From: Periconia sp. R9002
Taxonomy: Eukaryota; Ascomycota; Dothideomycetes; Pleosporales; Periconiaceae
Reading direction: 5' to 3'
DNA: 64,000 nucleotides
Assembly: GCA_023627715.1 (NCBI GenBank)
Contig: JAMAHW010000048.1
Coordinates: forward strand, 1 to 64,000
This document shows, one piece after another, positions 5,806-22,145 of this stretch; position 1 is the first letter of the stretch, and the number at the start of each line of letters is the position of its first letter. The notes beneath the pieces were generated by a model that was not told the origin of the DNA, ran no database searches, and saw only the letters and a program-made list of their open reading frames with translations. A program made the translations under genes and the position numbers.

Positions 5806-8142
5806 ATGTACTTCTCGACAATTATCGCTGCTACTGTGGCAGCGGCTCCAATAGTCGCCGCGCACGGTGGCGTTCCAGGCATGCCCAAGATCTTCGGTAT
5901 GGGAGCAGGTGCCTTGAGGGCTAGGGATACTGGATTCGCTGCCCGCCGTTCCGCTGCGCCGCCACACCCGCACAAGGTTAATAAGCGTCAGGGTGGTGTT
6001 GATGGCCAGTGTGGACCTGATGCCGGTGGGGCGACTTGCGCCCAAGGTTATTGCTGCTCGCCAGCTGGATGGTGTGGAAACACTGAGGACTACTGCGCTG
6101 CTCCGGTATGTTATTGGATCTACGACATCCTTCCATGAGTTCTTTTTCGCTGATTCTTGGGGTAGGATTGTTTGATCGACTACGGGTCTGGATGTGACGC
6201 TAATGCTATACCCAATGGTCAAGACACCAGGTCCTTGCCTCGACCTCAGCTCGGCTCCGTGGAGTACGGCGGTGAAGGCATTTATGCGTGCCAGGAACCT
6301 GGTACCATTGCCATCACCTATGATGACGGACCGTATATTTACACTGATGGTGAGTCTCAGAGAATTACATTTGGGTATTTGGCCGCTTGGAGTTGCTGTA
6401 TTGACTATTTTAAGCCGTCCTCGACACCTTTAAAAAGTATGGTTTCAAGGCCACATTCTTCGTCACCGGCAACAACAACGCAAAGGGAGCAATTGACGAC
6501 GCCTCTACGCCCTGGCCTGCGGTTATTACTCGGATGATCAATGAGGGGCATCAGGTTGCGTCTCATACTTGGTCTCATCAGGACTTGAGTGCGGTATGTT
6601 CTTCCACGTACAAAGTAGTATGAGGATACCACGTGATGTAGCGTTTTGAGACATCCATCACTCATTATATCACCCCTAGTTGAGTTAAGCTGACTTTTTA
6701 CCCGCGAATTTTAGATTACTCATGAACAGCGTATCGACCAGATGGTCCGCAACGAGATGGCTCTCCGCAACATTCTCCAGAAATACCCTACCTACATGAG
6801 GCCTCCATACTCAAGCTGTACTGCCGAAAGTGGTTGCGAAAAGGATCTGGCAGATCTCGGATACGTTGTGGTCTACTTTGACGTTGACACGACAGACTAT
6901 CTAAACACCACGCCCGATAAAATCCAGAACGCAAAGGACGTATTCGCCAGCTATGTCCAGAACAGCAACCCAGCAACGGATACTTTCCTTAGCATCGAGC
7001 ACGACATTCACCAGCAGACCGCTTTAAACCTCACTGGTTACATGCTCGAGATGATGGCCGCCAAAGGCTATCGCGGTGTAACAGTTGGAGAGTGCCTTGG
7101 TGACCCAGAAGCTAACTGGTACCGTGCCTCTTCTGGAAAGATTGTCACTTCTTCCTCTTCCAGGCCCACGGCTACCCAGTCTTCCGGTACCGTTTCGTCT
7201 ACTGCTCCTACCGCCACCCCCACCGGCACCTCTCAAGACGGTACTTGCGGTATCTCCAATAGCCTCACTTGCAAGGGATGGAACGAGGCTTCCACCGTCG
7301 GAGAATGCTGCTCTCCGGCTGGATGGTGCGGTTCTTCCCCAGCTCACTGCGGTGATGGCTGCCAGAGTGCATTCGGTGTCTGCGGCAACGGTAACTCGAC
7401 CACCGGTGTTCCCTCTTCCAGCGCCCCATCAGCTACTGCCAGCTCATCTTCAGTGCAGATTTCTTCTTCTGGCTCTGTAGTTTCCTCCTCGTCAAGCGCT
7501 CCTACTGCTACCCCCTCCAACCTCACCCCGTCTACGGATGGTACCTGTGGTGGTGAGTCCGGATTTACCTGCAAGGGATCTGAGTTTGGTTCTTGCTGCT
7601 CTCCGGCTGGTTGGTGCGGATCTACCGCTGACTACTGCTCTACTGGATGCAACGCGGCCTTTGGTACTTGCGAGGGCAGCTCTCCTTCTTCCAGCGCGCA
7701 ATCCACTTCGGCATCCAACTCCGCTGTTGTTACATCTAGCGCAGCTGTTTCCTCCGTTTCAGACTCCCTGCCATCTCTCTCAATCCTATCTTCCACATCT
7801 TCATCCACCTCCAGCTCTGCGCTCCCCACCTTCTCCCTCAGCGCATCTTCCTCCGCCACAATCCCTACCTCCACTACCATCATCTCCTCCGCAACCCTCT
7901 CCACTTCCGTCACCATCCCATCCAGCTCCGCCGTTCCCGCCACGGAACCCGCTACCCCTGAGCCTACGGCGAAAGTGAGCACCAACGGCCGATGCGGACC
8001 CCGTAATGGCGGTACTACGTGCGCGGGATACAAGGGCATTTTCAACCTTTCCCTCGAGTGCTGCGGTTTTGCTGGGATTTGTGGAGGCGACCTCCTTGCT
8101 TGCCGCATGGGGTGCCAGAAGGGGTATGGTAAGTGCTGGTAG
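5806..8142 (+). CDS. secreted polysaccharide (chitin) deacetylase with four CBM18-type modules
   Basis: Four exons (5806-6105, 6166-6349, 6415-6593, 6715-8142) give 696 aa. A signal peptide (about residues 1-19) and a Lys-Arg processing site (NKRQ) precede a CBM18 chitin-binding module (CCSPAGWCG, about 67-105). The NodB deacetylase domain follows with motif 1 TYDDGP (about 151), motif 2 HTWSH (about 210) and motif 3 RPPYSS (about 249), so the metal and catalytic residues are present. After Ser/Thr-rich linkers come two more CBM18 modules (about 396-440 and 496-540) and a degenerate fourth (about 644-694, CCGFAGICGG). The family removes acetyl groups from chitin; fungal members act on the producer's own wall or mask chitin from plant chitinases and receptors. 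The ATG at 5806 is chosen because it starts the signal peptide; the open frame extends upstream without one. Intron 3 (6594-6714) is about twice as long as the other two and is a putative introner-like element. Confidence 0.93.
6594..6714 (+). mobile_element. putative introner-like element (intron 3 of the deacetylase)
   Basis: This 121-nt phase-0 intron shares blocks in the same order with the FAD-oxidase intron at 21035-21158: TACAAAGTAGTAT (6609-6621), ACCACGTG (6628-6635), GTTTTGAG (6643-6650), GAGTTAAGCT (6682-6691) and a 3' end CCCGCGAATTTTAG against CCCGCAAATTTAG. The host genes are otherwise unrelated. The other introns of this gene (60 and 65 nt) do not show these blocks. Introner-like elements (near-identical multiplying introns) are known from Dothideomycetes; membership is inferred from two copies only. 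Confidence 0.75.
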
Positions 8143-9204
8143 AGAAGTGTGAGAGTAAAATCTTAGTTCTTTTCCTCGTTATCTTGATGTTACAGCGGGG
8201 AAGAGTAATTGTGTGTTTAGGGGTGGAAAAAGGAGGAGAGGGAAAAGGCGTTGAATGTAGATAAGATACGTCTGTATGTATGAATATCTATGCATGATTT
8301 TCTAGTGATTCATTCTTATAAGAAATGGCTTCTAACGAAATTTTGTTGCTCATTTCCACTTGCGATCTATAAATGAACTGCGAATTGCTCTTCTTTAGCT
8401 CTCTTAAGTCTTTTAATACGAGTGTGGTGAAAATCACATTCTAGAAGAACCCTTTGATTTACGTGTTCGCAGCACTACCATCTACCAACACTCCATCGTA
8501 AAACTCAACAGCTCCCCCGCGCGAACACAAAATCCACACACAGACTTTTATATAACATATCATAACCTACCAACATCTTATCGAACACGAGAGGTCAACT
8601 TCAACTAGATCCTGTAATACGCAACGCCTCTAAATAGCACTGTGACATATCCCATTTTCCGTCTCGGTATTTACAAACCAGGAGAATCTTAGCAAACACC
8701 CACTAATAGAGCTTTTTTCCTTAGGACTAGGATAGGGTAAATGTGGATTACTAGAAAGGGATAACGGGCTAGCTATAGACGAGACGGAATAATATATTTC
8801 GTGCATGCCAAGGATTATCCTAGGCGACAGATTTTGTAAAGGGCTGGCATGGGGTATTTTGGGGGTGTGGGGGAGAAAACCGGGGGGTTTAAGGTCGGCA
8901 TATACGAGTCCCATAGAAGAGAGTTGAGATGGGATTTGGAATGGTTACGGGGTTGGAAGAGGGTGCTCGATATTGAACAGCGTAATCACCAAGGTGTCAG
9001 ATTGTAATAGGTAGGCAAAAGAAGACACATCAATGGTGTCGGGGACGTGAATTTTATGCACCAATTATATACGTGCAAGAAGCGAAGAGGATATAAACTA
9101 TATACAAGAATCAATCGTTTTCCAGTGTCCCGTTAAACTCGTCGGGATTGTTTTGGTGAAGTCCCTTCGAGCAACCACACACACGCTATTCACTCAATAC
9201 CCAT
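8143..9204. other. gene-free interval between convergent genes
   Basis: This holds the 3' flanks of the deacetylase and of the pectate lyase, which are convergent. No frame with family resemblance or repeat was seen. Confidence 0.6.
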
Positions 9205-10176
9205 CTAGCAGGTCTTGATCTGAGAAGCAGTGTACTTGCAAGCGTTGCTAGGGCCCTTGGAGATGGAGCTAGGCTCGTTTCCTGGAGTGGTGCCCTTGAA
9301 CTCCTCGCAGATGTCCTTGACGCTGGTGGCGCAGGTGCCGCTGATGGTAGCAGAGTCGCCGAAGTTGGAGTTGATGCCCGCAAGGAGCTTGCCGTTGGTG
9401 GCCTTGACGTTCTTGATAATGACGTGGCGCTCGACGCTGTTCTTGCAGTTGCCGCAAGAGCGGTAGAGTTTGCCGAAGGTGTCGACGGTGAAGCCATCAA
9501 TGGTGACGGTTCCCTTGCCGTTGTGCTGGACCACTTTGTCCTCGGCGCCGGTGGCACCGCCGCCCTTCACGGAGGCGTTGCCGCTATGGAGATGGTGTTA
9601 GTGGTTTACTTGGGATATGTTTGCCAGCTTGAGGCTAATAAAGGCCTGAGAGGAATAACTTACTCTCCCTTGAGGCTCAGAGCATCCTCGCACACGGCCG
9701 CCCACCAGACATTCTCAATAGTGCATGATCTAGGAAAGGAGCAAAAAGTCAGCAGAATTCAGGTAGAGCTGTATGGTAGGGTTGAGAAGCATCAGGAGGT
9801 TCAACAACACGACACAATACAATAAAAATGTTATGCTAGACAATACATACCCCTTGCAATGAACACCCTCGATCTGGTCCTTACCAATGATGGCATTCTT
9901 GAGGGTGGCACCCTCATCGAGGATGAAGACAGCGTCCGAATCACCACCTTCGGCCTGGCCAGTGCAAGATACGCCACGGCCATAGGTCTTCATGCCACCA
10001 TCGAAAGTACCAGAGACTTTCTGGGCCGCCTTGTAGGTGACGGAGCCCTTGGAGGCAGGGATGGGGAAAGAAGCACGCTTAGCAATGGCGTAAAAGTTGT
10101 TGGGGTTGTTGGAGGTTGGAGTCGCGGAGACTGAGGTGGCAATAGCCAAGATGGAAGCAACGATTGAGGCCTTCAT
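9205..10176 (-). CDS. secreted pectate lyase, polysaccharide lyase family 3
   Basis: Three exons (10176-9851, 9729-9664, 9583-9205) give 256 aa, the usual size for fungal PL3. A signal peptide (about 1-18, ending SVSA) and a Lys-Arg site (IAKR) precede the mature enzyme. The catalytic parallel beta-helix shows family segments: [20 protein letters not shown], the exon-junction segment [24 protein letters not shown] and [15 protein letters not shown]. Multiple cysteines ([14 protein letters not shown]-terminal KTC) fit the disulfide-rich secreted form. PL3 enzymes cleave de-esterified pectin by calcium-dependent beta-elimination and are typical of fungi living on or in plants. A TATAAAG-like box on the minus strand at about 10366-10359 lies about 185 nt before the start. 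The 121-nt first intron is the same length as the introner-like intron in the deacetylase but does not share its sequence blocks. Confidence 0.93.
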
Positions 10177-13100
10177 TTTGAGATTGATGAGAATGGAATT
10201 CGAGGCTGGAAGTGGAAAACGATTGAAGTGGGCGAGAAGTGAAGGCGCTTTGTGAAGGAAATTTTGCGTCAAGCAAATCCGAACGAGAGACTATAAATGA
10301 ATGTGGTGATGATGCTCGGTGAAGAGTGAAGTTGCAATATAGAAGGCACTGCATACATCTTTATAGGTGGTCTGCATCGGAAACATTTTCGCTCCTATCA
10401 GAGTGGGGACTCCCTACCCGCGCGTGCATGAGAAAGACCCGACACTATTCCTCGAACAATCGTTCGGCCGCGTGAAACATCACAAACAAGGTCAGGACTG
10501 GACTTTACGTATGTCATTTGATGGTCGGAGGGTGCGCCAAAAGCGGAACGATTCTCAGCACTGACCCTTCTGGAGCAAGCCGTGTAGCGTCTTCATTGAT
10601 TGCGGGCGAGGATTTCGCACCCGTTTTCACATTATCTGGACATCCCCAAAATATTTTCACGATTTATTCGTCCCGCGATGCCAACTGCTTCTTGGCGCCA
10701 AGCTTGTGAGGCGCGTTTCACAGGTTGGAGCAAGAATCATCCTCCAATGAGAGGCGCGCATTCGAAACGAATGCTAAGAAACAACCTCCCCCAATCTAAC
10801 ATGACTGGAAATGGGGTTCCTAAATGGTTGCGCAATGCGGTCTTGGGTCGTGGCTACTAAACCTCTAGTTGTTAGGTTTTAGTTCTTTTTTGGTCATATA
10901 TGTTGCAGTAATATATTTTTATGCGGGGTGTGCGATGAAGATTAAGAACGTCCGGCCAAACTGATTCCGTCGACTGCTTCGTCGAACATCAAACTCAAAT
11001 GCTGTGTATGGATGTATAGATCCAATCGTCGAGCCGGAGACAGTGTTAGTTTTCGTCGATAGTCGCGCGATACCAGCCTCTTCTACTCTTTATTCGACGG
11101 GGTCGAGATCGGCGAACATAATTTCAAAACGATCTTCTTAGCATTTTACGATATGGAAATCTTCGAAAACGTGGGCCGACCCGTCCATTTCTAATGAGTG
11201 TTGGGTTGAACTCAGGGGCTCAATGGGGTCATGACTCAAGATTCTCGTTACCGTTGACCTTTGCATCGGTACACTGACCAGAAACAAACTCACTAAGTCA
11301 AAACGAGGAAAGATTCTCGACTTCATCTAAATTCTACGCATTGCACCACTTATCTCCACATTGCTTGGCGCCGCAGTCATTGTACTCTACGTCTAACACC
11401 CAGCGCAAGGCCTCTCCTCTCCGTTTGTCACTTAGTACAAAGTGTCCGAAAGGCCGAGTGAGGGTCTCAACTTCCGCGCAATCGGATTGGGAACAGGTTG
11501 TGATGTACGACACACAATATTGATCTCCACAGAGAAAAGAAAAAAGTTTGAACCGAAGAGCAGAGTATGGGAGAGATGTTTGCTTTTACCAGTAACCTTG
11601 CAAGTAAAAATGCAGTGCCCACAAAAAAGTCTTCGGACCGAGCAGGCACCAGTCGGGCGTAAACTAGACATCATCAGTTCTTGGAATCACGTTGTCGATA
11701 TACGAAAGTCGAAAGTATGCTAAAGATAGCAATTGATTGATTTTTCGTAGTTGAAATTGAGTTGCTGATTGAAATGTGAAAGCAATAACCGTACATTAGC
11801 GTTCGTATTTCCCCACATTACATACTTCGCACCAGTTGACTACAAGGTGCAAACATCAATATTTAATCTCAAAAACATCGAGAAAGCTCAGAACAGAGTA
11901 CATTGTTTTACTTGCTTGATCAGACTACACTCAAAAGTTCTGGCTATCGTAGATCGAAGTGCTGCTAGATCAAGGGTCCACCCCTTACCTCGATGTTCAG
12001 TTCAATGCATCGGCCCGGTGTATTTCCATCCACCAGCTCATCACAAGATTCTCGAAGCAATGACAGAAAGGGCAGGACAGATGAATTTAACATAGCAGGG
12101 TCATATAGGCAGTGGTATAAGTCATGTTTGGTTGACTAATCCCATTCCCAATGCGACACGAGGGCGAGTGCCAAGCGCTAACTTCAGCCGATGCTACAGG
12201 TCATCAGTCTCCGCTCAACCTCCCACTTCCACCCCTCTCTTTCATCACATTTGTAACGACACACCCACGCGACATGGTGTCGAATCTTTTTGAGTAATTG
12301 CTCAGCCATGAGTCTTGAGAAAGCGCACCGTTCAGCGCTCATCGTACGTGAAGCAGTGCCAAGGTGGTCACGCGACGTACCACTCCTAGATGTACCTTCA
12401 AGCGGTATCCGATGTGGAATCTCCGCGTCAGAGTATGGACTCTGAAAGATGCTCTGTAAAGATACAAAAGAATATCGGTAAACACAGTGTTCATATCAGA
12501 AAGAGTGTGTAGCTCTTGAGGAACCACGAAAACGATCAAGATGTATCATTCAATACAGCATCGGATAGCTTTGGCTCTGTTCACTAAATCAATCCGTAAG
12601 TCCCAAACAAAGTGTTTTCATGCGTTTTTTTTATGCTGATTAGGAATATTTCAGGTTAAGATGGCGATAAAATAAAGCATTTATGATGAGGAACCCCATC
12701 TTCATCCACGCAAAGCTTGCGAAGTCCAAGTGAGCAAGCAGGGCCATTCCGCGCACAAATTCCAGATACATGTCGAACACAACATTCCAAAGCGCCACGA
12801 TCATGTACTTGCTGCTTGTCCCACCCCACGCGAATATTGAACCATCGTGATTTCACCAGGCGCCATGGAGATTGAGTGGGATGTGTTACGCAACCTGTGT
12901 GTTGTCAATCACACCGCTTATCGTGCACGCGTTACGATGGTTGGACGCTGTGAAGCCACAATCCCACTCTTAGGACAACAATTGTTCAAATTCGACTACA
13001 AACCGTTGAAAAAGATCCATTGCGCAAGTATGGCTGGATAAAAGGTAGGTAAACAGGTGCATGGCAAGCAAGCGTGCAGTTGGCACTTACTTCCCTCATC

Positions 13101-13493
13101 ATAGGGGCGCTCGCTAGAAGAAAACGCTCGTTATCAGCGTGTGCGGGTACTGCCAAGGCCATCACCACGGGACAACACCGGTAGCGGCGACACACAACTT
13201 GAATTCTGACGTTCTGGATGACGTCCGAACTTCTCCTCAGCTTCATCCCCAGAGTTGCCACAAGAAATTCTCTCCACACATTTGCTGATCGCGTGGACAA
13301 TTTCTATCAATCAGAGCCCTCGACCTGACGTGTGGGCGTCGCGAGCCGAATAGCGTCATCGGGAAGAAGCGGCACTAAAAAAACCCAGACACAACCAAGC
13401 AATTCCGGCCTAGTATCATTGGTCGTCCCTCTCAACACTCATTTGTCGCATCAATAGTTGTTATTAGCTCGTGAAGTATATACCTCAACCGTC
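10177..13493. other. 3.3-kb gene-free divergent interval
   Basis: This lies between the starts of the pectate lyase (minus) and the A-T-R-SDR reductase (plus). All frames are short and resemble no known family; no tRNA, transposase fragment or long repeat was recognised. It must contain two promoters. The rest may be long leaders, an unseen non-coding RNA or decayed sequence. Confidence 0.5.
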
Positions 13494-16400
13494 ATGCCGG
13501 CCGCCGTTCCTTACTCTGATCCTTCTTCCACCTCACAGAACATGTCCATCATTGACACCACCAAGGATCTCTCTGCACTCTTTTCCAAACAAGCCCGCGC
13601 GACCCCTGACGCGGTTGCTTTAGAAGACGAAAACCATACATACACCTATGCGGAGCTCCACGATAAAGTCGTAGAACTCGCCGAACGACTCCGAAGCTAT
13701 GGCGTGGGTCGCGACAGCCTTGTTGGTGTCCTCTTACCCCGGTCAGCTGACTACGTGATTGCTTGTCTCGCCGCTCTTCACGCTGGCGGTGCTTTCCTAG
13801 TGTTAGAGCTAGCCTATCCTGCCGATTTGCTTGCCGACGTCGTCGAAGATGCTCGCCCTGCCGTAGTGGTGACCGTGCGCGCTGAGGTTGGCAAGATCAA
13901 GCCCAGCGTGCCTCTCATCACCGTCGATGAAGAATCTTCAAGCGCTGAAGCCTACCTGGAAAAGAAGGACTATCCCCCTTTGCCTGCCGAAACCGACTTG
14001 GAGAAGCTCAGTTTCGTTGCCTATTCTAGTGGCACGACAGGGAAACCAAAAGGCATCGCAAACCCCCATCGAGCAGCAGTACTCTCATACAACCTGCGAT
14101 TTCAACTATCTGATCTTAAACCGGGCGACCGTGTAGCATGTAATGTCTTCTTCGTATGGGAAATCATTCGACCCCTGCTGCGAGGGGCAACTGTTGTTAC
14201 AGTGCCGGATGAGAAGAGTTATGACCCTCCGGCTCTGGTAGACCTCCTTGCATCAAAGAAAATTACAGAGACTTTATTCACTCCCACATTGTTCGCTGCT
14301 GTTCTCGCCCGTCATCAAGCTCTAGGTCAACGACTCCCCAATCTCAAAACTGTCTGGCTCAATGGCGAAGTCGTGACTACAGACCTTGCACGACGAGCTC
14401 TTAAAACGCTCCCAAATACGCGTTTGCTCAATTGCTATAGCGCTTGTGAAACCCATGAGATCGCTTGTGGTTACATCAAGGACATGCTCGGCAAGATCGA
14501 TGAAGGTGCCATGTACTGCCCAGTTGGTCCCCCTCTTATAGACCCAAAGTATGTCTATATCCTCGACGATAGCGGCCAAAAGGTCGAAACAGGAACGCCT
14601 GGAGAACTTTTCATTGGGGGACACCTCCTTGCACGTGGTTATCTTAATCTTCCGGATACCACCGCCAAAGCATTCACTCCAAATCCTTTCAGCTCCAAGA
14701 CTGGTGCTCGAATGTATAGAACAGGTGACAAGGCACGTTTGCTCCCTTCCGGCCTGTTGGAAATCACAGGCCGTGTGGGCGCTATGATCAAGCTTCGTGG
14801 CTACTCAGTTGTTCCTGGTAAGGTTGAGAATGCAATCACAACCTACCTCGCCGCGACCAGATGCGCCGTCACCACATATGGCGAAGGTATTGACCGCCAA
14901 TTGGTCGCATATTTTGTGCGTGACAAAGAGGCAACTTCGGAACGGCCTCAAATCGAGATCGATAGTGATGGTCGCAGTGTTTCGTCCCGCCAATTCCTGC
15001 GATCGTATCTTGCTCATTACATGATTCCGCATATCTGGATCGAAATGGATGAGCTGCCCACGAACGATGTCTCCGGAAAAGTGGATCTAAAACAACTTCC
15101 TTCCCCGAAGACGAGAACCTCATCGCCAAATGGAACACGCGCCACCACATTTGAGCAAGACCCCATCACTATTGAACAAATTGCTGAGATTTGGGCCTCG
15201 ATTCTAGGTCTCAAACCGAGTTCTATTACTCCAGAATACAATTTCTTCGACCTTGGTGGGCATTCCTTGTCTCTTGCCGATTTAGCTGCACGGTTATCGA
15301 ACACCTTTGGTCTCAAAATTCCTGTTGCGCGACTTGCAGATCCAGCAACGCTTAATGGGCACCTAGATACTGTTCGTTCTGTCAGGCAAGGACATACGGC
15401 GGCCATACAAGCAGACCTCCCAGCCATCTTGCGTGCTGATGCAGTTCTCGACAAGGATATCCAGCCCTCTGCGACCGAGTTCAAAGCCATCAAGGATGCC
15501 AAGACCATCCTTCTGACAGGTGTGACTGGCTTCCTGGGTCCCTTCCTACTTCGAGAATTGTTGGATACGACAACTGCAAACATCATTTGTATGGTTCGCT
15601 TTAGTGACGCCTCGCAAGAGGAGCGTCCTGGTGGTGTGGCAAGAATTCGTAGGAATTTGCTTGACTTCGGTCTCTGGAGTGATGTAATTATGGAGAGGGT
15701 CGAAGTTCTACCTGGTAATCTAGCTCGCCGACGCTTCGGCATGGCCCCCGATGCCTTCGCCGAATTAGCAGGCCGAGTAGATGTGATTGTCCATGCTGCT
15801 GCTACCGTCAACCTTGTGTATCCGTACGCGGCCCTACGCCTTCCTAATGTGATAGGAACCAAGGAAATTTTACGATTGGCGAGCAAAGCAGGTGCAACAT
15901 TACAATACGTATCTACCAATGGTGTGTTACCTCCGGCGCAGGATCAACAAGGATGGCCAGAGGACGCCATGCTGGATGTTGAAGACGTACCGACTAAGCT
16001 TGCGGATGGTTATGGGCAAACCAAATGGGTGGCGGAACAGCTTGTTCTCGAGGCCGGCCGTCGGGGTTTACCTGTCAAAGTCCATCGCGCGGGTACTATC
16101 AGCGGACACAGCGAGACTGGTGCTTCTAACGCTTGGGATCTTCTAACTGCACTCATCGTGGAGTCTATTCGGATTGGCCACTATCCCGATGTCAAGGGCT
16201 GGCGTGCAGAAATGACACCTGTCGATTTCGTCAGCAAAGCTATCATTCATCTAGGCAACCAGACAGATGTAGATCAAGTTGTTTTCCACCTTGGAGATCC
16301 GACGCCTGTTGATATCAGCACGGTGTTTGCTGAGCTCAACGAGTTGGGTTACTCAACGCAACCTATTGAATTTAGTAAATGGATTGAGCTATGGGATGAT

Positions 16401-17402
16401 AAGCGGGGTTCTGCAAAAGGTGGAGACGGAGCTTTCACTATCGATATCCTCCGTAGCGGCATGCCGAGCATTGAATTCTTAAGGGACATCGTTGTTCTCG
16501 ACAACGCGAAAACTAGGCCTTTCCGCGCTGCAGTGGAGCGACCGAAGGTAGACAAGGTTCTGCTCGAGACTTACACACGCCACTGGTATGCTAGGGGCTG
16601 GCTCCCCAAACCTCCCACCTCCCAGAATGCATCGGGCGGTTCTGGTCAGCTTCCGCGAAGAGGTCCTCTGTACGGAAAAGTTGCGGTCGTCATGGGTGCT
16701 TCATCAGGAATCGGTGCGGCAACTGCAATGGCACTGGCGAGAGAAGGGTGTCACGTAGCGCTAGCCGCCCGTCGCATTGAAGCGCTCGAAAGCCTCAAGA
16801 AGCGGATGGTGGTCCGCGAGGGCAAAGTGCTTTTCCAAAAAACTGATGTTACCGACCGGGCTCAAGTGACAGCTCTCGTCAGCACCGTAGAAAAAGACCT
16901 CGGACCCATCGACATCTTCGTTTCTGTATCAGGCGTGATGTACTTCACCATGATGAAGAACATACAAACCGACGAATGGGACCGCACGGTCGACGTCAAC
17001 TGCAAAGGCCTCCTCAATGTCATCTCCTCCGCCGTACCTTCTATGCTTTCCCGCGGCAAAGGCCACCTCGTAGCCATCTCTTCAGACGCCGGCCGCAAGG
17101 TCTTCCCCGGTCTGGGCGTCTACTCCGCCAGCAAATTCTTCGTCGAGGCCACGCTGCAGAGTTTGCGTCTCGAGACTGCCGGCTCAGGGTTGCGCGTCAC
17201 GAGCGTGCAGCCTGGCAACGTTGCCACGGACCTTCTGGGCATGTCGACGGACCAGGAGGCGCTCAAAAAGTTCGGAGAACCGTCTGGTGCGAAGGTACTT
17301 GATCCTGAGGACGTGGCGGGTTCGATTGTGTATGCGCTCAAGCAGCCCGAGCATGTTGCTGTCAATGAGGTGTTGATTGAGCCCCGTGATGAGCCGATTT
17401 AG
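13494..17402 (+). CDS. NRPS-like A-T-R-SDR carboxylate reductase (NPS10/ATRR type)
   Basis: A single exon encodes 1302 aa, starting at ATG 13494. Domain order: adenylation (about 25-545; SSGTTGKPKG about 177, YSACETHE, YRTGDKARLLPSG, NDVSGKVDLKQL); carrier (FFDLGGHSL, phosphopantetheine Ser about 590); thioester reductase R1 (LTGVTGFLG about 671, YGQTKW about 839); and a C-terminal short-chain reductase R2 (MGASSGIG about 1064, YSASK about 1208). There is no condensation domain, so the enzyme should activate an acid, load it and reduce it, with R2 able to act on the aldehyde. This is the architecture of Cochliobolus NPS10 and of Aspergillus ATRR, which reduces glycine betaine to choline. At the A4 core the usual FDxxVWE is NVFFVWE, so the Asp that holds an alpha-amino group is missing, which fits a non-amino-acid or N-methylated substrate. 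Betaine as substrate is inference. Confidence 0.9.
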   Translation: MPAAVPYSDPSSTSQNMSIIDTTKDLSALFSKQARATPDAVALEDENHTYTYAELHDKVVELAERLRSYGVGRDSLVGVLLPRSADYVIACLAALHAGGAFLVLELAYPADLLADVVEDARPAVVVTVRAEVGKIKPSVPLITVDEESSSAEAYLEKKDYPPLPAETDLEKLSFVAYSSGTTGKPKGIANPHRAAVLSYNLRFQLSDLKPGDRVACNVFFVWEIIRPLLRGATVVTVPDEKSYDPPALVDLLASKKITETLFTPTLFAAVLARHQALGQRLPNLKTVWLNGEVVTTDLARRALKTLPNTRLLNCYSACETHEIACGYIKDMLGKIDEGAMYCPVGPPLIDPKYVYILDDSGQKVETGTPGELFIGGHLLARGYLNLPDTTAKAFTPNPFSSKTGARMYRTGDKARLLPSGLLEITGRVGAMIKLRGYSVVPGKVENAITTYLAATRCAVTTYGEGIDRQLVAYFVRDKEATSERPQIEIDSDGRSVSSRQFLRSYLAHYMIPHIWIEMDELPTNDVSGKVDLKQLPSPKTRTSSPNGTRATTFEQDPITIEQIAEIWASILGLKPSSITPEYNFFDLGGHSLSLADLAARLSNTFGLKIPVARLADPATLNGHLDTVRSVRQGHTAAIQADLPAILRADAVLDKDIQPSATEFKAIKDAKTILLTGVTGFLGPFLLRELLDTTTANIICMVRFSDASQEERPGGVARIRRNLLDFGLWSDVIMERVEVLPGNLARRRFGMAPDAFAELAGRVDVIVHAAATVNLVYPYAALRLPNVIGTKEILRLASKAGATLQYVSTNGVLPPAQDQQGWPEDAMLDVEDVPTKLADGYGQTKWVAEQLVLEAGRRGLPVKVHRAGTISGHSETGASNAWDLLTALIVESIRIGHYPDVKGWRAEMTPVDFVSKAIIHLGNQTDVDQVVFHLGDPTPVDISTVFAELNELGYSTQPIEFSKWIELWDDKRGSAKGGDGAFTIDILRSGMPSIEFLRDIVVLDNAKTRPFRAAVERPKVDKVLLETYTRHWYARGWLPKPPTSQNASGGSGQLPRRGPLYGKVAVVMGASSGIGAATAMALAREGCHVALAARRIEALESLKKRMVVREGKVLFQKTDVTDRAQVTALVSTVEKDLGPIDIFVSVSGVMYFTMMKNIQTDEWDRTVDVNCKGLLNVISSAVPSMLSRGKGHLVAISSDAGRKVFPGLGVYSASKFFVEATLQSLRLETAGSGLRVTSVQPGNVATDLLGMSTDQEALKKFGEPSGAKVLDPEDVAGSIVYALKQPEHVAVNEVLIEPRDEPI

Positions 17403-20400
17403 AAGAAGAAAAAAACGAGAGACGATGAGATGGTTCTAGGGCATGAGTAATAGATTAGAGATAGATGATAGCATGACTTAAAATGTAACTTAGCAAGCCC
17501 ATGATTATACAAGCATACATGTGCGTTGTTCACGTTAGTACACCTTCCTCCTAGTTGTTCACTTAAAAAATGAGACAAAAGACGAGGACATATCACGTTA
17601 AGGAGAGTGCTGCTCTCCGAGTTATCATTGTTATTGATTTGCTAGGTTTTCTCCGGGGTGCAAACAAAAAGTCATAACATCACAGGCGCTCCACTTACCT
17701 CCGTTCAATTCATCTGATATTCAGATAGGCATATCATCAGATCAAACCCTCGCACAACGACGACAATAATGACAAACGAAGGTTTGAGAAGAAGAAAAAA
17801 ATGACATTTGTAGATCAGGTTTGTTTGAGTAAGGAGGTTTTCGCGTTTGGATATTAAGTCTGGATCCTACTTTTTATTTTTTATTTTTCGAGGGGGGTGG
17901 AGGGGTTGGAGAGTAAGGTAAAAAAAAGTGTGTGCCTTAGGAAGAAGAAGAAAAGAAAATTTCCCCGTCATCGTCTCTTCACCGCTGTGAAAAGGTTAGT
18001 TGGTTTAAGTACTGCTCGCCACGGTATGGTGGTGGGTAGAGCTTTCACACAACTTAAAGAGTTTTATTGGGGAGGGATGTTGGCGTATAAACAGAGGTAA
18101 CGAGGCTCTAATCTTTTGTTATTCTACCCTTCAATAAGGTTTTCCTGTTAACTACAGTTACAGTCTGTCGTAGGGACTTTCCTAAACATACACAGACGTA
18201 GTATACCAATGATTTACGTACAAGCGCTGTTACAGGGTTCGAAATTTGACGTCTGCGACAGAGCATGACCTTCTGTACAGGTAACTGACTGGTACGGTCA
18301 GTTGACGGGAATGGCCGCGCGCGGTGTAATTAATTATCCACTTCGTATTGCTGTGGGCGTGCATGCCCAGACATGCAGTGATATCGTAACGACTTTCTTT
18401 CACGAACGACAATGCGTAACCGAAGGGCGCCATTGCCTTCGAAATGGGAACGCAATGGTCCAATCAGTGTTTGAGAGGGTTTCTTTGTATGGTGTGCATT
18501 GGTTGTGGTTTCCTTCGCGAGAGAAGGGGAGGTTAGAACGGGTAACCGAATGGCTCCGGTGCTTTGCTAGGGAGAAGAAATAAGTGTTAATGGGCTTTTT
18601 TTTGTATGTGCTACATCATTGTGATATACTGCTACCTCTAAAGAAAAGCGCGGTGGAGAATTGCTCACGTTACTCGACATCAGCCGCTGGACTTAGCCAG
18701 AATCCTTTTTTCCCCGAGGGGAATATGTCACGCACGCCAAGTGAGTAAAGTACTTTTGGACCAGACGTGACTTGAAGAGAATTGACTAGGCTTCAACGAC
18801 CATCATCGATCGATCGCAAACAATCAGGTAAGCACTTAAGCGACTTAAAAAAATCCATCTCGCGTTTGAAAGAAAAAAGGAAGCCGAATACTAGGCCTCC
18901 CGGATGACCGTTTCACTTACTCACCACCTCCCTCACCACCATCACACGATAACAACACAACACTCGCTTGTGCATATGTCCGAGCAAACAAAAAAAAGAG
19001 CGAAAGGATTTTAGGTTTTCCCCTATGGTCGCCCACATGCGTGTACCTGGCCTGGTTTCCTTACTCTCCTCCGCGACTGATCCGGTTAGTCGACAATTCT
19101 TTTTTCGTATTTATGTGTGTAAGCGATCCATCCGAAAGGCTGCTGCTGCCCTGGTGGTAATGCAAGATTCTGCATTGGATTTCGTTTCGGTTCTATTTTT
19201 CCTCCACCTCTGGTCCGTGTGACTGGAAAACAGAGAGAAAGATGGGGAAACGGAAATAAGGGTTGTATAGTAAGGTAGGGGATATGGGGTAGATACGTGG
19301 GGCAGCGGGATAGGGACAACTGAAAGGAACGATAGAAAGTATACCTTGTCCGGGGGGTTCCGCAACACTCACTGCACACACACCGACATACAGTAAAAAT
19401 GGTGCGCTGCACGGGGACTAATATCCATCGATATTCAGCCTATACGAGCTCGGCAGCAGCAACAACAAACAACGTCTACATATACGAGCTGAAGCCAAGC
19501 CTTTGGGTCCTCTTCCAACAACACACAGCCCCTCCGAATTAGTAAATTCCAGAGGATCCACAAATGGATAAAGGTGGCCATAAAACAAGTCTAGTGTACC
19601 CGTTCTCCGCACATTGTGGAGGTCTCGTATTGTTCGGTCGGAGGGACAGGGGGTGTGCGGTTGTTTATTACTTTAGTCTAGGGAAAGATTGCGCCCGGGG
19701 GTCGGCGATCATAGTGTAACTTTTTGAGCGAATCGGGAAATGTTTGGATGATATAAAACTAAAAATGGGGTATACTTTACAGAAGATCCGGAAGCGGACC
19801 GACCGACTTGCCCCCCAGCGGTACACACACATACTTAACATACATACCTTATGCATATTGACTGCATATACGAAGGGAGGAATGGGTTTATTTATTTGCA
19901 CCACGCAACGTTTCTCTTGCGAGCGGCCGTTTGGCTCGTATTTTTGGGGGGAGGAGAAGAAGGCTAAGCTGGACGAAGAAGTGATATGACGTTTTCTTAC
20001 TTGCGCCCTGCGAGCCTAAATGGACGGCGACGTGCTCGCGTGGAATGGCATTCAGGGGTTTGTACCTGGATTGAGGAGAGAGACGGTGATAAGTGACTTC
20101 TTGGCTCGGTACATTGTTGCATCAGTATGCAGATTTCGACCCGTGGACAGAAGATATCGTATTCGGTTGGACTTGGGTATCTCAGGTGCTTGTTGTTGTT
20201 TTGTGGGTTTAGAGAGGGGTTTGCTTGTTGATTGGTGCGATTGAGGTTGTTCATTTCAATTGCATGTCTTAATTTGGGTTCCATGGGATTCCCTTGGGGA
20301 CGGTTTGGGGCTCGCTTGAGTGCTCGAACACGTTTTCCGGCTTTTGAGAGTGCTGCCTTCGTGTATGCGGCTGTGGAAGCGATGGGATGGATATGTTTGA

Positions 20401-20536
20401 CGACGTCAGAGGCGCTGGGGTTCGTTGGAGATATCGAGATTTTTGTTGTCGAGGACCTTTTTGTGAATATATATACCAATGAGTCAAAGGCATTGATTGA
20501 CAGCGTCGAACCAAGTATCCTGCACTCAATTGCACT
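17403..20536. other. 3.1-kb gene-free interval
   Basis: This is the 3' flank of the A-T-R-SDR gene and the promoter of the FAD oxidase. It contains several A/T homopolymers and purine runs but no frame with family resemblance. A TATATATA stretch near 20467-20474, about 65 nt before the oxidase ATG, is the likely TATA element. Confidence 0.5.
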
Positions 20537-22145
20537 ATGATCATCCTTCTCTTTGCGGCGGTGTGCTCCGTCTTCGTCAGTCTAGTCCAAGCCGACACTT
20601 GTAGCTCAGTGGAGGCACTGGGCTACATCAATGTCACACGCCCTCTAGACCTTGCCTACATAGAAGAGCAGACGCAATACTGGTCTACGTCTTGCTCAGC
20701 CCTCAAACCCTCGTGCATCATCTTCCCCAAATCTGTAGAGGAAGTCTCGACAGTCGTCAAGATTCTCGCGAAGACCACCGAGAGGTTTGCAGTCAAGTCT
20801 GGGGGCCACAACCCAAACAACTACTTCTCCAGCGTCGATGGCGGTCCCCTGATCTGCACCGAACACCTTGATCAGGCCAATCTAAACCAAGCCACTGGTG
20901 TTGTCGACGTTGGTCCGGGCAACAGGCTCGACGGCATTGCAGCGAAGCTCCAGGGAAGCGGATGGACTTTCGTCGGTGGAAGAATCGGTAATACCGGCGT
21001 GGGTGGACTCGTGCTCGGTGGCGGTCTGAGCTACGTAAGTTTTTCCCAGATACAAAGTAGTATAAAACACCACGTGGCATGGTGTGGTGTTTTGAGGCTA
21101 TGAATACCCACTGAATCACCTCTCTTTGAATTAAGCTAATTCGTCCCCGCAAATTTAGATGAGTGCCCAGTACGGGTGGGCTGCAAGCCAAGTGATCGAG
21201 TACGAGATTGTCTTTGCAAACGGCACCATCGGGCACATCACCAAGGACTATCCAGATGTCTTCAAGGCACTCAAAGGCGGTGGCAACAACTTCGGCATCG
21301 TCACAAACTACAAGTTGCAGGCCCATCCCCAAGCCAACGTCTGGGGAGGAAACCTCGTGTACATTCGAACACCGGAAAAAGACAAGAAATTGTTAAAGGC
21401 CGTTCGAGACTTCACCGAGTACAACACGGACCCCAAAGCCGCCGTCATTGTCACCGCCGAGCGGACAAACGTGGACCTCGTAGATTCATGGATAATCTTC
21501 CTCTTCTACGACGGACCGACCCCTCCACCGGGCAAGTTCGACAACTTCACCGACGTGAACCCCGTCTTGGACACCACTCGTGAACGCACTTATGCCGACC
21601 TCATGGCGTTATCGAACTGGGTTGTCTTGAAAGGCGAGGTTGTAGACATTGCCACCGAAACCATCCCGCTCCCCAGCGCGGCGAACGAGGAAAAAGTCAT
21701 GGAAGGCCTTCACGCACATTGGCGCAACGTCAGCGACACGACGCTTCTAGAGCTCGGCATCGTCGCGTCCATAGCATGGCAGCCCTTCCCCAAAGCCATC
21801 GCACGAGAAGCTCGTAAGCGGGGTGCCGATCTCATTGATGCGGACGACTCTGTGGACCGAATCATCATTGAAATGAATTACGCGTTTACATCGCAGCTTA
21901 GCTACGATAGGATGGCGGATACTGCCGAGACGACGTATACAGGTGTTCGTGACAGGATTCTTGGATGGCAGGCTGATGGAACTTTGCCGGAAGCGTACTT
22001 GCCTCTTTTTATGAATTACGGATTCTTCCGACAGGATTACTGGGGAAGATTGAGGCCCGAGAGTAGGGCGGTAGCGAAAGCAGTGTCTCAGCAGGTTGAT
22101 CCGGATGGATTGTTCCAGACGCGGACTGGAGGTTGGAAGCCGTGA
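20537..22145 (+). CDS. secreted FAD-linked oxidase (FAD_binding_4 / BBE-like)
   Basis: Two exons (20537-21034, 21159-22145) give 494 aa. A signal peptide (about 1-19, ending LVQA) is followed by the PCMH-type FAD domain: VKSGGHNPNN (about 85-94, whose His is the expected covalent FAD site) and GGRIGNTGVGGLVLGGGLSY joined across the intron to MSAQYGWA. The second half has GGGNNFGIVTNY and ends in the BBE C-terminal strand region (MNYGFFRQDYWGRLRPES). The family oxidises alcohols, sugars or specialised metabolites with O2, giving H2O2; the substrate cannot be told from sequence. The Cys that gives a second flavin bond in berberine-bridge enzymes is not seen in the expected place (GGRIGNTG), so a single His linkage is likely. 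The 124-nt intron is a putative introner-like element. Confidence 0.9.
21035..21158 (+). mobile_element. putative introner-like element (intron of the FAD oxidase)
   Basis: This 124-nt phase-0 intron is colinear with deacetylase intron 3: TACAAAGTAGTAT (21051-21063), ACCACGTG (21069-21076), GTTTTGAG (21089-21096), GAATTAAGCT (21128-21137) and 3' end CCCGCAAATTTAG. It also has a perfect 10-bp inverted repeat, AAAACACCAC (21064-21073) and GTGGTGTTTT (21084-21093), around a 10-nt loop. The matching part of the deacetylase copy is eroded. A stable stem is a reported property of young introner-like elements. Confidence 0.78.

Follow-up and report, generated by a model that had tools for sequence, protein, structure and literature searches.

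A probable DNA-transposon origin for a family of introner-like elements in Periconia sp. R9002

Two spliceosomal introns in the first 64,000 nucleotides of contig JAMAHW010000048.1 from the fungus Periconia sp. R9002 (assembly GCA_023627715.1, forward strand; hereafter the window) very likely belong to a family of introner-like elements (ILEs). We consider it likely that the family consists of non-autonomous DNA-transposon-like elements of about 120 nt, resembling miniature inverted-repeat transposable elements (MITEs), and that landing in coding sequence is the main mechanism by which they make introns. One of the two introns, copy a, has 121 nt and lies in a polysaccharide deacetylase gene (6594..6714); the other, copy b, has 124 nt and lies in a gene for an FAD oxidase (21035..21158). 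Both are in branch I of the family. Its sister, branch M, is MITE-like and makes 3-bp target-site duplications (TSDs). Branch I seems to have been derived from the same element and to have gained improved splice ends.

A preliminary description of the window had reported the resemblance of the two introns and suggested an ILE family. The blocks that it named are present and colinear, and a global alignment of the introns has 92 identities in 128 columns and a score of 99, compared with a mean of 13.3 and a maximum of 32 for 1,000 dinucleotide shuffles of the pair (mean 14.6, maximum 35 with the splice ends fixed). Chance similarity is rejected by these shuffles. The hosts are indeed unrelated, and the placing of both introns in phase 0 and in sense orientation is upheld by the protein alignment, which at copy b (GGGLSY^MSAQYGW) is gapless in 120 of the 120 homologues listed, and by the Pfam domain Polysacc_deac_1 (PF01522), which continues across the spliced junction of copy a. 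Their length, given as about twice the usual, is slightly below that if the usual length is taken as 69 nt, the median of 15 intron-like stretches of the window that fit a strict motif.

The family extends through the genome (42.9 Mb, 267 contigs). Copy a as query gave at least 41 matches (40 of the 102 first candidates were scored) and copy b gave 11, while a 29-base pattern of the 3' part occurs, with up to three mismatches, at 87 places; the reversed control found 0, as in all five pattern searches. They contradict the condition under which the preliminary description would have given up the ILE family, namely that the genome has no further copies; the genic copies lie in unrelated genes. 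A profile applied to 298,039 letters of fetched, partly overlapping loci marked 109 places, 91 of them at 60 bits or more.

The copies have two types of end, GTAYGTTCTTCCAGGTACAAAGTAG ... GCTGACTTTGTACCCGCGAATTTTAG in branch I and GTTGAACTCCAGGTACAGAGTCG ... GACTTTGTACCCACGATATAGG in branch M. Branch I has the form GTAYGT...GCTGAC...TTTTAG over about 121 nt, mostly between an exon that ends in G and one that starts with GT. Branch M elements are 123 nt long, with a consensus interior nearly that of branch I and different ends: between the consensus of 28 I copies and that of 37 M copies, the differences are the outer ~10 bases and a 5-nt indel. Close 5' ends (up to three mismatches) number 25 for branch I and 123 for branch M genome-wide, with controls at 0. 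Both ends were recognised at 80 of the 109 places, of which 43 were typed M and 37 typed I; the 29 others, excluded from the TSD counts, include seven of the 30 genic copies described below. In a tree of 86 copies, in which 33 of 83 inner branches are open, I and M fall on separate sides (support 72/96) bar two poorly typed rows, C73:117046 and C10:336852, which had first been typed I and group on the M side; neither is among the 29 of 37 I rows that have GT-AG. These 29 are of near-constant length from splice site to splice site (median 121 nt). Mean identity among I copies is 81%, and the similarity covers the whole intron length in an alignment of 26 copies.

A search for conserved RNA structure was negative. 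RNAalifold found no conserved fold in 26 copies (-1.7 kcal/mol), and the folds of eight copies had z-values of -2.53 to +0.70, one of them below -2. The 10-bp stem described for copy b is predicted as stated; nevertheless, its whole-intron fold is no better than shuffles (z -0.43), and the stem is no family feature.

Some copies deserve separate mention. A third M subgroup (C41:52423, C7:687162 and C92:49698) has a different 3' interior (CTAGTTACATTTAACTAACTTTGTACCCGCGATATAGG), and two of its three members are flanked by TAT at either end. At C7:729556-729793 (locus L022) an I copy abuts an M copy at its 3' end, as though it had landed on the M border. An exact 25-mer had 0 matches in viral contigs.

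Target-site duplications, inverted repeats and splice sites

Identical triplets flank 21 of the 43 M copies, whereas random re-pairing of the flanks gave a mean of 9.7 and reached that count in 0 of 5,000 re-pairings. Within the triplet, the two sides are correlated at position 2 and at position 3 (8 and 0 of 5,000), and the eight neighbouring positions tested are uncorrelated. Among the least diverged M copies the triplets match in 13 of 22, and the six matching triplets other than TGT are TGC (three), TAT (two) and TGG (one). A longer duplication was ruled out: none of the 43 copies has flanks that are identical over 4, 5, 6 or 8 bases.

One M copy, C86:128884-129006, has paralogous empty sites. 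Its joined flanks match contigs C162 (92%) and C161 (89%) over 160 of 160 nt, with equal length on both sides, and the 60 letters compared at each junction align without gaps: CGG[TGT]..element..[TGT]TCTGG at the filled site, CGG[CGT]TCTAG and CAG[CGT]TTTAG at the empty ones. The triplet is thus present once at both empty sites, as CGT, and on both sides of the element, as TGT, at the filled site. If this copy is cut at GTGTGT and ATATAG, the sequence returns to the arrangement of the empty sites, and the 329-base locus has one frame that is open across the splice; Pfam found no domain in that locus.

The ends of the elements are related by an inverted repeat. When the first 26 bases are compared with the reverse complement of the last 26, with M copies cut at the TSD and I copies cut as GGT-element-GGT, there are 12.4 matches in M and 11.3 in I at register 0, against 6.6 and 6.7 for a scrambled null and at most 9.1 in the remaining 12 of the 13 registers tested. 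The repeat is subterminal, GGTACARAGTC running inwards from base 12, and at least nine of its 11 pairs are kept in 23 of 37 M and 8 of 29 I copies. Branches I and M share both this register and the 13-nt spacing to the presumed TSD; because the register is shared, the presumed duplication of branch I falls exactly on G|GT at the 5' and at the 3' splice site.

The flanks of branch I agree with this placing. Among the 29 GT-AG copies, the last exon base is G in 22, GT follows downstream in 24, and both features, that is GGT on both sides, occur in 18. The same three features were found in 12, 3 and 2 of 28 strict-motif controls and in 71, 15 and 5 of 221 relaxed-motif controls (Fisher p about 1e-18 for the GT), both sets of controls being putative introns matched by motif.

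An M element of 420 bp (C191:17720-18139, locus L093), considered as a longer member of the family, proved to be an M copy interrupted by another repeat, which is AT-rich and has the ends TTTCAGGTGTAACGGGGTCA and GGCCCTGCTACACCTGAAAG; TGT still flanks the M copy at either end. No pair of family ends that would mark a long element was seen by eye in the lists of 5' and 3' ends (95 and 36 places).

Genic copies

Open frames cross the spliced junction in 30 copies, 23 of branch I and seven of branch M, at a threshold of at least 33 codons on each side that admits some chance frames (e.g. on C21, C127 and C12) and that 20 loci of 329 bases are too short to pass. Branch I is found in genes more often than branch M: in loci of at least 2 kb, the splice-and-frame test is passed by 17 of 34 rows in I and by 6 of 31 in M. 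When both strands were tested for frames, 10 of the 34 I rows were in sense and 4 in antisense, as were 4 and 3 of the 31 M rows.

Scanning of 21 junctions in 20 proteins showed 12 that are spanned by a Pfam domain scoring above the curated cut-off. These domains are:

Peptidase_S10
CBS (by whole-protein score only)
Methyltransf_25
ABC_tran
Abhydrolase_1
adh_short_C2
MFS_1
Response_reg
Hydrolase
Peptidase_M20
PHO4
Polysacc_deac_1

One gene, for a CNNM/Mam3 protein on C43 (locus L042), holds a copy from each branch: an I intron at 131667-131787 (FVGMLL^VKMLITYD) and, about 155 nt away, an M intron at 131942-132051 (KSHMVL^VSDFPGE). At both junctions 120 of the 120 listed homologues align without gaps within eight residues, as at copy b. 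The best named relative of the protein, from Paraconiothyrium brasiliense (80%), ranks below two unnamed sequences. Weak family-like matches lie within 2 kb at 130303, 133295, 133440 and 133577. A CNNM fragment on C21 that starts at the exon border was uninformative, having unrelated upstream sequence in the 80 letters taken.

To judge from their sequence, then, M copies can also act as introns, since a G of the target followed by TNN from the TSD and by the GT of the element gives GTNNGT. A G precedes the TSD in 21 of 43 M copies, and in 15 it is combined with an AGG end and a following T. The M copy at C5:331914 fits the GTNNGT pattern: its two flanking triplets are TGG, and its frame is open. 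In three genic M copies (C27:13532, C41:271563 and C43:131942) the 5' triplet is TAA, which gives GTAAGT, and the 3' triplet differs; perhaps, and this is a guess, the donor site was improved after insertion.

Phase 0 accounts for 17 of the 23 I and all seven M genic copies (24 of 30), against 34.5% of the GGT sites in the same frames (p 1.3e-4 for branch I). Intron-less paralogues were found for two hosts. The joined exons of 12 genic copies yielded one, for the copy on C56: a PHO4 gene on C17 (72% identity). A set of 17 further I joins yielded another, on C2, for C5:16726 (76% identity, extending just 13 nt upstream of the junction); here spliced RW^VGKLVG corresponds to RW-IGKLIG, with no extra residue.

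Origin of the introns and known systems

The mechanism, which the preliminary description left open, can be narrowed, since a sister branch with 3-bp TSDs and inverted repeats points to DNA transposition. On this model a transposase acting in trans would recognise the inverted repeats and make staggered cuts three bases apart. In branch M, the target G, the duplicated TNN and the element's GT would form GTNNGT, with ATATAG carried by the element, and splicing would leave a single G-TNN. In branch I, the duplicated GGT would be split: its GT would open the intron ahead of the element's AYGT, its last G would complete the element's TTTTA to AG, and splicing would leave a single GGT. In both branches the mRNA would be returned to its sequence before insertion, and the host would therefore tolerate the copy. 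Branch I would descend from an M-like element by a change of ends; we infer DNA transposition of this branch, and splicing in vivo for the family.

We give about even chances to a further proposal, that the target preference of the transposon itself builds the splice site. M would favour G-TNN and bring GT, and I would be the same element with reshaped ends, such that one GGT duplication serves both splice sites. If so, insertion alone would provide exact-target splicing, with no need of later evolution; a plain MITE, an accidental intron and a specialised introner would be found together in one fungal genome; and the reverse-splicing exception claimed for ascomycetes would be without basis.

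Several observations weigh against a transposon origin. The outer 11 nt of the two ends show no clear inverted repeat. No PF13359 transposase domain was found in the genome, with a control that matched one of 14 genomes; nor was PF02992, for which the control was silent and the result is uninformative. In branch M, 22 of 43 copies have no exact triplet match, position 1 of the triplet is T in 35 and 37 of 43 without correlation and could be a fixed preference, and empty sites were found for only one of the 17 copies tested by joined flanks. In branch I, only the last exon base and the downstream GT are free evidence, because splicing itself requires GT and AG, and the full GGT/GGT arrangement is missing in 11 of 29 intact copies. 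The two intron-less paralogues, on C17 and C2, show clean absence of the intron with no GGT at the junction, so neither provides a single-GGT empty site for branch I. The phase-0 excess is unexplained by the model, under which GGT glycine codons would favour phase 1. Neither window intron has a full duplication: copy a has GGT and GAT at the presumed TSD positions (two of three bases), and copy b has CGT and GAT (one of three), no recognisable TSD. Moreover, the junction of copy b codes for Y-M in 112 of the 120 homologues (the remaining eight have no match to the motif searched), which leaves no room for GGT. Decay can explain the lacking matches in both branches only if the copies are old; for copy b, old age plus drift, or a different route of arrival, may be the explanation.

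We weighed three other origins. In reverse splicing, a route put forward for other fungal ILEs, excised intron RNA would enter another transcript or an R-loop and be copied to DNA, and the GGT flanks would reflect a protosplice preference. The exon G and downstream GT could be such a target preference, copy b lacks a TSD, and the genic copies found splice in sense, although the splice test was made on that strand only; the frame test gave the 10 to 4 excess of sense copies in branch I, and published work on other ascomycetes favours this route. Nevertheless, reverse splicing does not make the correlated, variable triplets of branch M, which shares its interior with branch I, or the single-triplet paralogous empty sites seen for one copy. 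Position -2 of branch I (G in 20 of 37, A in 6 of 37) is unlike an AG protosplice site, branch M has no strand preference in the frame test, and 25 of its 31 rows in loci of at least 2 kb fail the splice-and-frame test. We regard this route as improbable for the family. A mixed origin, in which M is a plain MITE and I arose from an M-like copy that became a well-spliced intron and then spread by reverse splicing or gene conversion, would accommodate the separation of the branches in the tree, the absence of a TSD from copy b and some other I copies, and the failure to find a single-GGT empty site for branch I. It sits less well with the inverted-repeat register and 13-nt spacing that I shares with M, and with GGT on both sides of 18 of 29 I copies, and we think it rather unlikely. 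Finally, old introns alike by chance, or MITEs inserted into pre-existing introns, would suit the divergence of some copies (81% mean identity in branch I); however, the repeat spans splice site to splice site at near-constant length, the alignment score is far above shuffles, and paralogues of two hosts have no intron, which largely refutes this origin for the family and leaves it a negligible probability. Transposition of a MITE-like element thus remains the reading that we prefer.

Fungal introner-like elements of Dothideomycetes were reportedly the subject of van der Burgt 2012, and DNA-transposon introners of algae are said to be that of Huff 2016. The survey of Gozashti 2022 (PMC9860276) presents ascomycete introners as an outlier without terminal inverted repeats (TIRs) or TSDs and notes that fungal introners had been interpreted as RNA-based. 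The ILEs of Dothideomycetes, as treated in Collemare 2015 (PMC4457414), share with the family described here the occurrence of near-identical spliceosomal introns in unrelated genes. For published fungal ILEs, stable structures are reportedly predicted and neither TSDs nor TIRs are reported, whereas we find TSDs in the sister branch, a symmetric inverted repeat in both branches and no conserved RNA fold. Compared by description (PMC9860276), the DNA-transposon introners of algae and other eukaryotes have in common with the present elements a TSD and inverted repeat and, on our model, a splice site recruited from the TSD and an unchanged mRNA length; the differences here are a 3-bp TSD that would be split between the splice sites, a fungal host and, in the same genome, a MITE-like sister branch with a nearly identical interior. 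The sister stwintrons of Hypoxylaceae and Xylariaceae (PMC12403724, 2025, which cites the Gozashti survey, and PMC8469720, 2021) are likewise multiplying fungal introns with near-terminal inverted repeats, but are nested, and are reported to have no TSD and no exon bias, in contrast to the single introns, exon bias and M-branch TSDs of Periconia.

Cut-and-paste MITEs with a 3-bp TSD are similarly short, duplicate their target and have many copies; the inverted repeat here is subterminal and the TSD is TNN or, presumably, GGT, unlike the TWA of PIF/Harbinger. MITEs with 3-bp TSDs are known from the superfamilies PIF/Harbinger, CACTA, Academ and Zator.

The multiplication of new spliceosomal introns has long been debated. 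DNA transposons are a documented answer in algae and other protists, and ascomycetes have been the stated exception. Our literature search, thin on subscription papers, preprints and supplements, found no published fungal introner with TSDs. The family looks like a counterexample to the published view that TSDs and TIRs are absent from ascomycete introners. Its inverted repeat, together with the TSDs and empty sites of its MITE-like sister branch, makes a general exception for fungi less plausible. The transposition model can be tested here at individual sites of a single genome, and the family suggests that a plain MITE may need few changes at its ends to become a maker of introns.

The two window introns and their host genes

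The features of the two loci, all on the + strand, are as follows.

6594..6714, +, copy a, branch-I introner of 121 nt; intron 3 (by the count of the preliminary description) of the polysaccharide deacetylase gene, phase 0
6608..6616, +, 5' subterminal inverted repeat of copy a, GTACAAAGT, read directly; symmetric register shown for the family
6689..6694, +, GCTGAC of copy a, a motif frequent in branch I, from direct reading and the family alignment
6693..6702, +, 3' subterminal inverted repeat of copy a, ACTTTTTACC, from direct reading and the family register
6715..8142, +, deacetylase coding sequence 3' of copy a, an open frame
20537..21034, +, FAD oxidase exon 1
21035..21158, +, copy b, branch-I introner of 124 nt from a diverged subgroup; in the FAD oxidase gene, phase 0
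21064..21073, +, 5' arm of the predicted 10-bp stem of copy b, AAAACACCAC, no family feature
21084..21093, +, 3' arm of the predicted stem, GTGGTGTTTT
21135..21140, +, GCTAAT of copy b, a branch-point-like motif, from sequence and alignment
21159..22145, +, FAD oxidase exon 2

We take GCTGAC of copy a to be the branch-point motif. In the tree, copy b groups with C20:351228 (support 100/96). The branch-I profile detected no third copy in the window, the next match having an E-value of 0.81, and the window has no match in Rfam. The spliced FAD oxidase, of 494 aa, is 93% identical to a protein of Periconia macrospinosa and 88% identical to one of P. digitata. Between the two host genes, a long open reading frame (13458-17402) resembles what is presumably an NRPS-like reductase with an adenylation domain and a fused short-chain dehydrogenase end.

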